Shown in pieces: positions 1-5,348 of a stretch of 26,101 nucleotides of DNA (its first letter is position 1; each line of letters begins with the position of its first letter). The translations under genes and the position numbers were made by a program. Source of the DNA: a virus; IMG/VR virus record IMGVR_UViG_3300043295_000006, positions 1 through 26,101 of that record. The stretch is one strand, 5' to 3'. The notes beneath the pieces are model-generated. The model saw only the letters and a program-made list of their open reading frames with translations. It searched no databases and had not been told where the DNA came from.

Positions 1-117
1 TGCAGCATGAAGCGTTTTATGCTTGCGAACAAACAGCATCGCTTCGGTGCATGGATGCATTTGTGCAAGCTCGTCCATCGACATCGTTACAAGTGGGTTC
101 GTTTTCATGTCGGCCAT
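1..117 (-). CDS. Second copy of Imm-5-like gene, 5' end only (cut by window edge)
   Basis: The minus-strand reading frame starting at 117 encodes the same first 39 residues (MADMKTNPLV...) as the complete gene at 137-691 and then runs off the window. Its DNA is identical to 575-691 and lies within a 127-bp direct repeat. It begins 20 nt after the stop codon of the complete copy, so the arrangement reads as a tandem gene duplication. The alternative is an assembly artefact: 127 is a common maximum k-mer size, and contigs often start on such an overlap. The rest of this copy cannot be seen, so whether it is intact is unknown. Confidence 0.5.
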   Translation of the reverse strand, partial: MADMKTNPLVTMSMDELAQMHPCTEAMLFVRKHKTLHAA

Positions 118-127
118 TCAATCAGAG
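1..127. repeat. 127-bp direct repeat, copy 1
   Basis: Bases 1-127 are identical to 575-701, an offset of 574 bp. The repeat covers about 10 nt upstream and the first 39 codons of the Imm-5-like gene. The match ends at 127/701, where the bases differ (t at 128, a at 702). It is either a recent tandem duplication or a k=127 assembly-graph overlap. Confidence 0.9.
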
Positions 128-136
128 TGGCAATAT

Positions 137-691
137 TCATAGAGATTTCCTGAAGGGGTTCCGCACCAGCCTCCGCAATTGGTTCGCCTGCCATTTGCGC
201 TCACTGTTTCTCGCGGCGGCGTTGGCGGCGTAGGCGGCGGCGTTGGCGGCGGCGTCGGCGGCGTCGACGTTGGCGGCGGCGTAGGCGGCGTTGGCGGCGG
301 CGTAGGCGGCGTTGACGGCGGCGGCGTTGACGGCGTAGGCGGCGTAGGCGTTGGCGTCGGCGGCGTTTCGGCTAGCCTCCGAGGGGTCGTTCAACCACTT
401 CAGCGCCGCCTCAATCGCCCTTCGCGGTCTCTTGTCATCCGGGCACTTCGACTCGAAGATTGGAAGCACTCGCTCCGCACACTGACAGGCGAACCTGACG
501 GCAATCGGTTTCTCCAAAAGACTTTTCCGCCGCAAGAACCATATCATCCAGTCGGCGCGTTCGCACTTCTGCCATGCAGCATGAAGCGTTTTATGCTTGC
601 GAACAAACAGCATCGCTTCGGTGCATGGATGCATTTGTGCAAGCTCGTCCATCGACATCGTTACAAGTGGGTTCGTTTTCATGTCGGCCAT
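137..691 (-). CDS. Putative immunity protein (Imm-5-like) with Ala-rich tail
   Basis: A 184-residue protein. The N-terminal half carries CERADWMIWFLRR (about residues 43-55), a motif I associate with proteins annotated as putative immunity protein (Imm-5-like). The C-terminal part (about 105-163) is a low-complexity run of Ala broken by Asn, Tyr and Asp, followed by a basic end. At the DNA level this run is a degenerate GGC/GTT/GTA triplet array at about 210-370 on the plus strand. Relatives I recall also have Ala-rich tails. The start at 691 lies 4 nt after the stop of the small upstream ORF, with no clear Shine-Dalgarno. No function is proven; similar proteins occur in phage and bacterial accessory regions. 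The start region is duplicated at 1-127. Confidence 0.7.
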   Translation of the reverse strand: MADMKTNPLVTMSMDELAQMHPCTEAMLFVRKHKTLHAAWQKCERADWMIWFLRRKSLLEKPIAVRFACQCAERVLPIFESKCPDDKRPRRAIEAALKWLNDPSEASRNAADANAYAAYAVNAAAVNAAYAAANAAYAAANVDAADAAANAAAYAANAAARNSERKWQANQLRRLVRNPFRKSL

Positions 692-701: not shown

Positions 702-860
702 ATGTAGTAATCTTGCAAGAACTTTCTTCAACCGTGAATAATCCCGCTGACCTTCCAGGCCAATGACCAACTCAGGCGAAACGATTTCTGGTCCTACGGC
801 CACAGTCGCAGTAGATTCATTGCAAATACTCCAATACCGGACGCTCTTGTGGTTCGCCAT
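696..860 (-). CDS. Small hypothetical protein, 54 aa, overlapping the upstream gene
   Basis: An ATG-initiated frame starts at 860, inside the 3' end of the nuclease-like gene, and ends at 696. The product begins MANHKSVRYW and ends KKVLARLLHL. The second half (about 25-54) has a protein-like mix of charged and hydrophobic residues, including PEIVSPELVIGLEGQ. It fills the gap that would otherwise separate the flanking genes and stops 4 nt before the next start codon, as expected in this compact genome. Against it are the 44-nt overlap with the upstream gene and the lack of a good ribosome binding site. I do not recognise a family. Confidence 0.45.
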   Translation of the reverse strand: MANHKSVRYWSICNESTATVAVGPEIVSPELVIGLEGQRDYSRLKKVLARLLHL

Positions 861-1170
861 CCACCCACGCCACCAGACGCGGCTGTTTCCTGTTCATGGG
901 ATAAGTGCCGATCACGACAATTTCACCGCCGGCGTTCAACCACAATCGGTGACGGGGTTCCGTGCTGATCTTGTTGACCCGCTCACTCACATGGGTTGAA
1001 CTCGTTGCCTGCACTAGGATAAATCGGTGAGGCTTGAAGGCCAGGAAATCCCCGAAATTGAGGAAATCCCTTTTCCATGTTCTGCCGTTGTGAAAATTGT
1101 CGTACTCGACTCTCTCAACGGTGTACCCGCACAACCCCAATAGTTCGCGGGCTTTTTGGCTCGGAGTCAT
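817..1170 (-). CDS. Putative PD-(D/E)XK nuclease-like protein
   Basis: A 117-residue protein. The block FGDFLAFKPHRFILVQATSS (39-58), followed by HVSERVNKI and a later AGGEIVVIGT strand, resembles the small phage endonuclease/resolvase-like group with a degenerate PD-(D/E)XK core. Asp41 would be the metal ligand, and Gln54 takes the place of the usual E/D-X-K. This is judged by pattern only. The ATG at 1168-1170 uses the last base of the 8-bp direct repeat TGCTTTCT next to the methyltransferase element. Without that element, the start would overlap the stop of the upstream zinc-ribbon gene as ATGA, so the two were probably translationally coupled. The start is 30 nt after the methyltransferase stop. 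Confidence 0.55.
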   Translation of the reverse strand: MTPSQKARELLGLCGYTVERVEYDNFHNGRTWKRDFLNFGDFLAFKPHRFILVQATSSTHVSERVNKISTEPRHRLWLNAGGEIVVIGTYPMNRKQPRLVAWVDGEPQERPVLEYLQ

Positions 1171-1177
1171 GCTTTCT

Positions 1178-1977
1178 GGTAGTGGCCTGTTTTGGTTTTT
1201 TCACTTGAACGCCAAGACCTCCTGTGCCAAGCGTTTTGCGGCAATCTCCAGCCATCGCTCGTCCACATCGCAACCGACGAATCGTCGGCCCATCAGCTTT
1301 GCGGCCTCTGCCGTACTGCCGCCGCCCATCAGCGGGTCAACCACAAGCTCGTGCGGTTGTGTGTGCCAGCCGATAAACTTCATGGGTAATTCAATCGGCT
1401 TGGGCGTTGGATGATCATCGGCAGTGGGTTTCAGGCCTGAGATTCGCACTACGTTGCCAACGCTTGAACCGCCAAACCAGCGGCAGGCCGCGCCGGGCTT
1501 CTCCCCCACAAGGATCGTCTCGTAGTTGCGGCGATAATGCCACCCCATGCCCAATCCGCCCTTGTCCCACACGATCATCTGCTTGAAACCGAGCAATTCA
1601 TCGAGCCAAAGCGACCATCGGGCAAATTGCGGATCGGGTCCGCCGCCGCCGCCGCAGCAGCAGCAGCAGCAGCAGCCGGGCTTCAAGACTCGCCGTGATT
1701 CTGAGAACACGAACTTGACCAGCCTGCTCGCTTCCTCTTCGCCGTCGTTGGCGATTGGCCTCGCATCTTCAGGCTTGTTCTTGCGGATGCCAAGAGCGGC
1801 TTCCCAGTTGTGTATCAAATCCCCGTTGTTGTTGTTGTTGTGACCGTAAGGCGGATCGGTAAACACAAGGTCTACCGATTCATTCGCCAAGGATGGCAGA
1901 ATATCACGGCAATCAGCGTGCCAGATTTCCGCGTAATCATCTTTGTAGTACGGTTTCATTCAAAGTAGGCCACTACC
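1178..1977. mobile_element. Minimal mobile cassette 1 (inverted repeats, 8-bp TSD, methyltransferase cargo)
   Basis: An 800-bp element. The left end is GGTAGTGGCCT (1178-1188) and the right end is its inverted counterpart AAAGTAGGCCACTACC (1962-1977); the left end diverges after 11 bp. The 8-bp sequence TGCTTTCT directly abuts both ends (1170-1177 and 1978-1985), as a target-site duplication would. Removing the element and one repeat joins the two neighbours: the zinc-ribbon gene then ends ...KPKKKKA-stop, with its TGA overlapping the next ATG as ATGA, the junction style used throughout this genome. The only gene inside is the methyltransferase (1201-1959). No transposase is present, so movement would need a trans-acting enzyme. 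I do not recognise the ends as a known IS family. Confidence 0.88.
1201..1959 (-). CDS. DNA adenine/cytosine-N4 methyltransferase (DPPY type)
   Basis: A 252-residue amino-methyltransferase. The catalytic motif DPPY is at 35-38. HPTPKP is at 183-188. The cofactor-binding motif DPLMGGGST (208-216) is followed by RRFVGCDVDERW. This order (catalytic motif first, SAM motif last) is the beta class. Two homopolymers are notable: Asn41-45, and Cys96-102 followed by Gly103-107, encoded by near-pure triplets. I recall phage relatives with the same N-run and C-run, so they may be family features. It probably methylates DNA to evade restriction or to mark replication. It is the sole cargo of an 800-bp inverted-repeat element: its start is 3 nt inside the right end and its stop is 23 nt from the left end. 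There is no visible Shine-Dalgarno, so translation may depend on the insertion site. Confidence 0.9.
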   Translation of the reverse strand: MKPYYKDDYAEIWHADCRDILPSLANESVDLVFTDPPYGHNNNNNGDLIHNWEAALGIRKNKPEDARPIANDGEEEASRLVKFVFSESRRVLKPGCCCCCCCGGGGGPDPQFARWSLWLDELLGFKQMIVWDKGGLGMGWHYRRNYETILVGEKPGAACRWFGGSSVGNVVRISGLKPTADDHPTPKPIELPMKFIGWHTQPHELVVDPLMGGGSTAEAAKLMGRRFVGCDVDERWLEIAAKRLAQEVLAFK

Positions 1978-2175
1978 TGCTTTCTTCTTCTTCGGTTTCA
2001 CCAGTTTGTAGCCATCGACGATGTGGCCCCGCTCGCACATTATGTCGATGACCTCGTTATTCCCCACCTGTATCGGCACGCTCTTGTACGTGGGCGATTC
2101 AGTCCCGCATTTCCGGCAGAACCTGGTCTCGCCAGTTGGATGCACCGTGATGCCGTTCATGCGGAGGTCAGCCAT
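1960..2175 (-). CDS. Small zinc-ribbon protein
   Basis: A 71-residue protein with CRKC (about 20-23) and a later CERGH (about 48-52), a likely zinc-binding pair, and a Lys-rich C-terminus. It overlaps the end of the upstream HTH gene by 8 nt and has a GGGGGA stretch shortly before the ATG. Its last residues, GSGLL, are encoded by the inverted repeat of cassette 1 (1962-1977). The inferred pre-insertion protein ended ...KPKKKKA and its stop overlapped the ATG of the nuclease-like gene. The protein therefore tolerated insertion with only its extreme C-terminus altered. Function unknown. Confidence 0.7.
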   Translation of the reverse strand: MADLRMNGITVHPTGETRFCRKCGTESPTYKSVPIQVGNNEVIDIMCERGHIVDGYKLVKPKKKKAGSGLL

Positions 2176-4160: not shown

Positions 4161-4390
4161 CGTAATTCTTTCTTGTGCAGCAATCCGATTATCCTTCGGA
4201 AAGTTGGGTCGTAGATTACGCTCGCTCGCCGGCGCTTGCAACGCCGGGTTATCGCCAGCCACCCATTTGTCGGAGGGCTACAAGAAATGCGCTTCCCCCT
4301 TTCGGGACTAACCCTCGAACGTAAGGCCTCGCATGGCACGTTTGCTGCACAAATTAACTGTACTGAAATAGTGGAGAGGCATCGGCAGCT

Positions 4391-4696
4391 GGTAGTGGCC
4401 TACTTTCATTTTCGGGGCAAGGAATCGAACGTGATGCGGTCTTTCCCAATCCAACGCACACGGAATCGACCGCCCTTGATTTCGACCTCTTCGCCATTTT
4501 GAAACACCGGGCCCTGGTCTGCGCGATTCGGAATAGCTTCATCCTTAGCAATTTCCATCGCCTCCGTAAGCGAGACGCTGCGGCCCTTGAGTTCCTCCAG
4601 CATTTTCTTCTGCGCGGGGTTTAGCTCCCGCATTTCTCCCGTTCTTAGGTCTTGCATTTCTTGTCCTTTCGTTTTGGTTCAAAGTAGGCCACTACC
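4391..4696. mobile_element. Minimal mobile cassette 2 (inverted repeats, 8-bp TSD, small-protein cargo)
   Basis: A 306-bp element with perfect 16-bp terminal inverted repeats: GGTAGTGGCCTACTTT (4391-4406) and AAAGTAGGCCACTACC (4681-4696). The 8-bp direct repeat CGGCAGCT abuts both ends (4383-4390 and 4697-4704). Its right end matches that of cassette 1 over 19 bp (GGTAGTGGCCTACTTTGAA on the minus strand). The only gene inside is the 83-residue protein (4406-4657), whose stop codon begins in the left repeat. The insertion splits a longer frame and separates a GGGGAGGT sequence (4705-4712) from an ATG (4380-4382). No transposase is encoded. Confidence 0.9.
4406..4657 (-). CDS. Conserved small phage protein, 83 aa (cargo of cassette 2)
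   Basis: An 83-residue protein. The C-terminal half (about 51-83: FQNGEEVEIKGGRFRVRWIG, then KDRITFDSLPRK) is a beta-rich pattern seen in many small uncharacterised phage proteins. The N-terminal half is helical and charged. AAAGGA precedes the ATG by about 6 nt, inside the element just after its right repeat, so the gene travels with its own ribosome binding site. The stop codon begins within the left inverted repeat. No function is known to me. Confidence 0.75.
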   Translation of the reverse strand: MQDLRTGEMRELNPAQKKMLEELKGRSVSLTEAMEIAKDEAIPNRADQGPVFQNGEEVEIKGGRFRVRWIGKDRITFDSLPRK

Positions 4697-4979
4697 CGGC
4701 AGCTACCTCCCCGGTTCATCAGCAGGCTTTCATCGTTGCCACGAGCCGGAGCACTGTGCCCCGCTTGAATCAGCCCGTCCCGTGTCTCGCCGCAAGGCTT
4801 CGACCTGATCTGCCGATCACTATGAGGGGCATTCCCCTTGCCCAGCCCCTTGTCCACACTGGCATACTGCACGGGATTCTTGTTGGTGTGTAGATGTGAA
4901 ATGGACTGCCGTGCCGGTGATCCCGGAGGCGCGGCAGCAGATTGAGGCCGACTGACAACCCGACCGACCTCAAACAAAT

Positions 4980-5008
4980 TGGTGAGCGGGACAGGATTTG
5001 ACACCTGC
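4980..5008 (-). other. tRNA 3'-end-like fragment
   Basis: On the minus strand this segment reads GCAGG, TGTCAAAT, CCTGT, then CCCGCTC and ACCA: a T-stem and loop, an acceptor strand, a discriminator base and CCA. The loop has one extra base compared with TTCAAAT. No matching 5' half (GAGCGGG) occurs upstream, so this is not a tRNA gene. It may be a captured tRNA end or an attachment-site core. It lies just after the point where the surrounding ORF stops resembling its family. Confidence 0.4.
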
Positions 5009-5108
5009 ATTTGACCGGCCCGAGAGATGTGGCCGTCGTCATGCTCCGGCGACCATCCCTCAACTTCAATCTGGCGTTTACGTTCTGCGGCGATCAGTTC
5101 GTTTCCAG

Positions 5109-5348
5109 TCATGGTGTCCTCGGTCGCTGAATGGTTTTGCAGAACTCAGCGTGTTTAGTTACTTGGGCGACCGTAGCCGATCCCGGCGAGACATGGAATG
5201 TGTCGATCCAAAAATCATCGTCCCAATCGCTCGGATTTCTGCCAAAGCGCCTCTCGTACTCCTCCTCTGCTTGGTCACGCAGATTGGCATATCTTTCGTG
5301 CGCATTTGAGAGTCGGTCAAGTAATTGCTGAAAACCCAAATCTGTCAT
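5109..5348 (-). CDS. Hypothetical protein, 79 aa
   Basis: A 79-residue acidic protein starting MTDLGFQQLLDRLSNAHERY and containing EEEYERRFGRNPSDWDDDFW, a helical, Trp/Asp-rich pattern. The start at 5348 is supported by AAGGAG about 8 nt upstream. Longer in-frame extensions to 5645 overlap the preceding gene in a different frame and look non-coding. Its stop overlaps the next start as ATGA. I do not recognise the family. Confidence 0.7.
   Translation of the reverse strand: MTDLGFQQLLDRLSNAHERYANLRDQAEEEYERRFGRNPSDWDDDFWIDTFHVSPGSATVAQVTKHAEFCKTIQRPRTP

Follow-up and report, generated by a model that had tools for sequence, protein, structure and literature searches.

A single phage gene between IS1-type ends: a probable trans-mobilised cassette in a virus genome

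Introduction

Insertion-sequence ends may enclose a gene other than that of a transposase. According to the account in PMC1196294 (citing Chen et al. 1999), the mobile insertion cassette MIC231 of Bacillus cereus carries a non-transposase gene between insertion-sequence ends and is activated in trans by the IS231 transposase. The two cassettes described here lie in a virus record of 26,101 nucleotides (hereafter the window, meaning the whole stretch analysed). With MIC231, as presented in that account (PMC1196294), they share insertion-sequence ends around a non-transposase gene, the lack of a transposase of their own and a mobility thought to be supplied in trans. They differ in having IS1-type rather than IS231 ends, 8-bp duplications and phage-type cargo inside phage genomes, and further in their very small size (306 bp for the smaller), in a cargo that starts at the end's inner edge and in being present several per phage genome.

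Miniature inverted-repeat elements (MITEs), generally described as non-coding (review PMC10969869), are likewise short and non-autonomous, with insertion-sequence ends and duplications, whereas in the window cassettes an intact gene takes up almost the full length. The smaller of the two (element 2) was rejected as a MITE on this ground: it is filled by its 83-codon gene, for which a homologue exists. Integron gene cassettes also carry one promoterless-looking gene per mobile unit, which joins a transcription unit; unlike them, the window cassettes have inverted terminal repeats and 8-bp duplications in place of attC sites and site-specific integration, and are scattered rather than arrayed. 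Element 2 was rejected as an integron cassette on the basis of the inverted repeats at both ends and the 8-bp duplication. Mobile insertion cassettes are already known, while phage genes as their cargo in phage genomes look new: we found no description of such cassettes in a literature search, weak evidence since most subscription papers lay outside it.

Results

Structure of element 2 and its insertion site

A preliminary description of the locus had reported a single 83-residue gene between perfect 16-bp inverted repeats, with CGGCAGCT adjoining both of them, and these coordinates proved exact on re-check (Table 1). The ends of element 2 are the only perfect inverted repeat of at least 16 bp found in the window, and the 83-codon ORF occupies most of the element. 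Read inward, the end in front of the cargo is GGTAGTGGCCTACTTTGA, with a TAG at nt 3–5 and a TGA at nt 16–18; the cargo ATG begins at nt 40, preceded by an AAAGGA motif, and its stop lies 15 nt short of the outer end. No relative of the transposase (described below) was found in the 26.1-kb window, which is the whole virus record.

Table 1. Coordinates of the two elements and neighbouring features in the window
Feature	Position	Strand	Evidence or remark
Gene downstream of element 1	817..1170	-	own ATG retained
Element 1 target duplication TGCTTTCT, left copy	1170..1177	.	window sequence
Element 1, sister cassette, 800 bp, methyltransferase cargo	1178..1977	-	ends GGTAGTGGCCTGTTTT / GGTAGTGGCCTACTTT, 14/16 match
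Element 1 cargo, N6/N4 DNA methyltransferase, 252 aa	1201..1959	-	PF01555 E=5e-26; phrog_67 E=5e-51
Gene upstream of element 1	1960..2175	-	native C-terminus KKKKA retained, GSGLL added by end
Element 1 target duplication TGCTTTCT, right copy	1978..1985	.	window sequence
Element 2 target duplication CGGCAGCT, left copy	4383..4390	.	window sequence
Element 2, non-autonomous cassette, 306 bp	4391..4696	- (cargo strand)	perfect 16-bp inverted ends and 8-bp duplication
Element 2 inverted end GGTAGTGGCCTACTTT, behind cargo	4391..4406	+	window sequence
Element 2 cargo gene, 83 aa, no known domain	4406..4657	-	ORF, domain and homologue searches
ORF upstream of element 2, 155 codons, start of the claimed 213-codon frame, doubtful gene	4645..5112	-	ORF list, codon usage
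Element 2 inverted end AAAGTAGGCCACTACC, in front of cargo	4681..4696	-	window sequence
Element 2 target duplication CGGCAGCT, right copy	4697..4704	.	window sequence

The 83-residue protein matched no known family in Pfam, PHROGs or NCBIfam, nor any PDB sequence, and its AlphaFold model, built from a two-sequence input, is of low confidence (mean pLDDT 68.8, pTM 0.36). The single homologue found, with 52% identity, is a plain phage gene without cassette ends in a 197-kb viral contig (L360), which fits the capture of a phage gene in the case of element 2. It had been asked whether homologues of this protein are flanked by the same repeats; this sole relative is not. Homologues of other cargo genes do have such ends.

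The same description held that deletion of the element together with one 8-mer restores a reading frame. The arithmetic is right, as removal of 306 + 8 bp leaves a 642-nt open frame (213 codons plus stop) running from 5112 to 4157. The gene itself is not supported: codon-usage scores per 30-codon block are 3.9, -4.0, -0.8, -3.8, -3.0, -10.0, -6.3 and -2.6, negative after about codon 30, and on this basis a real 213-codon gene broken by element 2 was rejected. The frame is probably not a gene, and the sequence that received element 2 is probably non-coding or decayed; the argument from the reading frame is unfit as evidence for the element. RNA family and tRNA searches returned nothing credible at the insertion site, and no empty site was found for element 2 itself.

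Element 1 as an operon-compatible insertion

Both elements had been described as having the same repeats. This holds for the right end of element 1, which is identical to the element 2 end, and only at 14 of 16 positions for its left end. The methyltransferase ATG is nt 19 of the element, with no gap after the TGA of the end, and the upstream gene now reads KKKKAGSGLL before its stop. In the empty site, the ATG of the downstream gene and the native stop of the gene before it share bases (ATGA). With stop codons in the repeat and a cargo ATG close behind, insertion at a gene end is compatible with an operon, and element 1 displays exactly this arrangement. The first 39 residues of the methyltransferase (69% identity) and the whole end-to-start junction are common to a cassette remnant in another record (G002, described below). 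The downstream gene gave no relative in the viral collection from which an empty site for element 1 could be read.

Two further features of this region were observed. The methyltransferase contains in-frame triplet runs (~1650-1680 and ~1826-1842) coding for CCCCCCCC-GGGGG and NNNNN, the latter directly after the DPPYGH motif, and these runs are possibly variable in length. A 138-bp direct repeat, 96% identical between window positions 1-138 and 575-712, brackets a GGCGGC/GGCGTT/GGCGTA triplet tract in a 184-codon minus-strand ORF (137-691).

A family of elements with 8-bp duplications

Collection searches yielded 64 distinct paired elements with ends GGTAGTGnnnnnnTTTGAAA, nearly all in viral contigs. 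They came from pattern scans of the viral collection, one scan of a genome collection and loci found through their transposase (in viral contigs, plasmids and a phage); an end pattern with 14 specified bases gave mostly chance matches, and longer patterns were used instead. Among the 130 end pairs that agree at 15 or more of 20 bases, 59 have flanking 8-bp sequences identical at all eight positions; a control comparison offset by 12 bp gave none in 130. The duplications show a weak bias, approximately to S-A-A-A-T-T-T-S.

These counts exclude chance at the level of the family. That element 2 is merely an accidental inverted repeat beside an accidental 8-bp match, for which nothing speaks except the short length of the repeat, is refuted by 59/130 against 0/130 and is vanishingly improbable given that one 26-kb record holds two elements and that a large family elsewhere shows perfect duplications. 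The earlier proposal that two such elements with their duplications define a family is borne out, 8-bp duplications recurring beside such ends at dozens of further loci.

The uninterrupted locus, which had been suggested as a check, was found for another member of the family and for neither element of the window. The cultured Brevundimonas phage vB_BpoS-Gurke (ON529850.1) carries a 6,654-bp member (L171:483-7136) with the duplication CGAGTGTG. This IS1-type element includes passenger genes, lies immediately after the DNA polymerase gene and has zero genes annotated over its span. Its sister phage Kikimora, with flanks ~98% identical, has the uninterrupted site with one CGAGTGTG.

Two records are unusually rich in ends: G001 (L356, 24500-40847) has 11 in a 40.8-kb record and G002 (L357, 25500-37500) has seven. 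Some of their end pairs lack matching duplications, and both records hold short decayed transposase N-termini. We read the unmatched pairs as recombination between elements after insertion. They are also what recombination between ends would leave if the ends were simply short conserved boundaries flanking exchangeable genes, as proposed for some phage mosaics, with no transposition involved; this interpretation is contradicted by the perfect and mostly different 8-bp duplications of 59/130 pairs and by the exact empty site, and, with unrelated flanks around shared cassettes (see below), we consider it very improbable.

In bacterial genomes the exact ends are scarce. The GGCC pattern occurs in 17 stretches in 257 Gb, against ~11 that we estimate by chance, although these include true end pairs in two loci (L127 and L137); the GGSCTAC pattern was found in 2/396 genomes from the phylum to which the Acidobacteria genome belongs and in 0/388 from that of the Akkermansiaceae genome. 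With matches this few and near chance level, bacterial genomes were rejected as the main home of these exact ends. One bacterial contig of an Acidobacteria MAG holds a MITE-like 38-bp unit consisting of just two abutting ends (L137:1652-1689) with CTAAGGTC on both sides, and no such unit was found among the viral contigs.

Transposase-bearing relatives and their affinity to IS1

An IS1-type (PF03400) transposase or a fragment of it is present in 36/64 elements and absent from 28/64. The family transposase is a single ORF of ~280 aa. Three tested transposases exceed the gathering score of DDE_Tnp_IS1 (33.6-35.3 vs 24.1), whereas with NCBIfam IS1, their best model, 5/5 stay under the cut-off (51-65 vs 100 bits), which marks them as a divergent IS1-type clade. 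Target duplications of the IS1 family measure about 8-10 bp, a range that includes the 8 bp found here in the 59/130 pairs and at the exact empty site. The GGTAGTG present in nearly all ends of the family has the form GGnnnTG, which is described for IS1-family ends (PMC6807381).

Single-ORF elements with passenger genes (L143, L144, L146, L042, L008 and that of Gurke) combine a PF03400 transposase, GGnnnTG ends and 8-bp duplications. Transposase-bearing elements are long (median 2.65 kb, maximum 6.65 kb) because of their varied passenger genes. The window elements have the same end type and 8-bp duplications as these autonomous relatives but encode no transposase. End type tracks transposase phylogeny: among 16 transposases placed in a tree, those of elements whose GGTAGTG is followed by GGCTAC or GCCTGA group together in a single clade with support of 95/95, and the window elements have ends of this clade's type. 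By end type and supported clade, their ends match those of identifiable autonomous elements. The exact GGCCTACTTTGA end was seen only without a transposase: no transposase element carrying it was found, the nearest ends being GGGCTACTTTGA and GGCCTGATTTGA.

Many elements (L008, L042, L144, L170, L206, L234, L276) encode near one end a small basic protein in which a GGxKGG or LGGWPKGKKRGKRK-like motif is sometimes accompanied by a CxxC segment. Annotated as "histone H1" within the L170 element, this recurring protein is perhaps a transposon accessory protein.

One-gene cassettes and their cargo

The window elements belong to a transposase-less, one-gene subset with ends G[C/G]CTACTTTGA. Its cargo comprises three PAPS-reductase-like genes, a C5 methyltransferase, the N6/N4 methyltransferase of the window, the phrog_11619 methyltransferase family (two cassettes), phrog_12600, an HNH-like gene (judged by eye, with no Pfam match) and unknowns. 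A search of 14 cassette-bearing records detected no transposase gene. All of these records may be fragments, so that a transposase may lie elsewhere in the same phage; two of the 14 contain decayed transposase stubs of 31 residues.

The same cassette recurs at unrelated sites in two cases, L323 and L300 (93% aa identity) and L055 and L356 (74% aa identity); in both pairs, similarity begins at the first base of the repeat and the flanks are unrelated. Two cargo families are therefore each found between these ends in two cassettes, contrary to the possibility, raised beforehand, that cargo homologues never have them. Homologues of two other cargo genes (E15 and E17), checked in two cultured phages, are without ends. 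The picture suggested by these comparisons is of captured ordinary phage genes.

Could the cassettes instead be the decay products of larger elements, in which an IS1-type element with passengers lost its transposase by internal deletion and kept one passenger, rather than a recurring form? Autonomous relatives do carry passenger genes, and several transposase-less elements elsewhere keep remnants or recurring accessory genes of autonomous ones. Clean cassettes, both window elements included, hold only a phage-type gene, with accessory and transposase remnants absent; the same cassettes appear repeatedly at unrelated sites, and the start geometry is the same across unrelated cargo families. 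Decay is for these reasons an unlikely origin.

Stop and start codons of the ends

Read inward, the ends carry TAG at nt 3-5 in 119/128 cases and TGA at nt 16-18 in 112/128. Of 16 cassettes in which the cargo ATG was placed, 11 have it at nt 19-22 and the other five at nt 28-40. In L323, L326, L327, L337, L377, L349 and L314, cargo genes unrelated to one another have a common start position, nt 19-22, behind the end's inner edge. Where an upstream gene reads into a cassette, a few residues, often GSGLL, can be appended before it stops; in the five cassettes whose upstream gene is fairly clear, the native codons lost number 0 (element 1), 3 (E06), 7 (E11), 8 (G012) and 13 (E26). The longest frame across the empty site of 56 elements has a median of 405 nt, compared with 846 nt at random positions (p=6e-12, only indicative, as random positions within one locus are not independent). 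Insertions avoid gene bodies.

Discussion

Both window elements consist of insertion-sequence ends around a non-transposase gene, which is one mark of a mobile insertion cassette. Judging from its sequence and that of its relatives, element 2 is very probably one phage gene between IS1-type ends that is mobilised in trans, by a DDE transposase of the IS1 type whose gene lies elsewhere. This reading is supported by the ends, the duplications, the 64 relatives, the empty site, the recurring cassettes, the transposase clade and the stop/start geometry, and we also count in its favour the lack of a transposase in 14 cassette records, the 38-bp two-end unit and the avoidance of gene bodies.

Mechanistically, an IS1-type transposase would act in trans on the cassettes, supplied by a host element or by a co-resident phage or prophage. 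Insertions at gene ends would mostly survive because the end supplies stops (TAG at nt 3-5, TGA at nt 16-18) with the cargo start nearby. The cargo would then enter a phage operon without breaking it, its start lying within reach of putative coupled translation.

A broader scheme may be put forward tentatively, and we hold it to be possible rather than likely: a phage gene-cassette economy, in which a trans-acting IS1-type transposase would spread single phage genes, the end would serve as a translational adaptor, entry at operon junctions would be harmless, and capture would attach a start codon to the end at its inner edge. The cargo moving between unrelated phage genomes in such an economy would often be DNA-modification genes (methyltransferases) and PAPS-reductase-like proteins.

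The elements are overlooked by annotation, as over the Gurke element, and can be recognised by their 18-bp signature; in the cultured pair Gurke and Kikimora, activity of the family can be sought straight away. Single accessory genes make up the mosaic of phage genomes, and their precise arrival is usually ascribed to illegitimate or homologous recombination plus selection. For the long-standing question of how one gene comes to lie exactly between two others, these cassettes offer a concrete, testable route by transposition.
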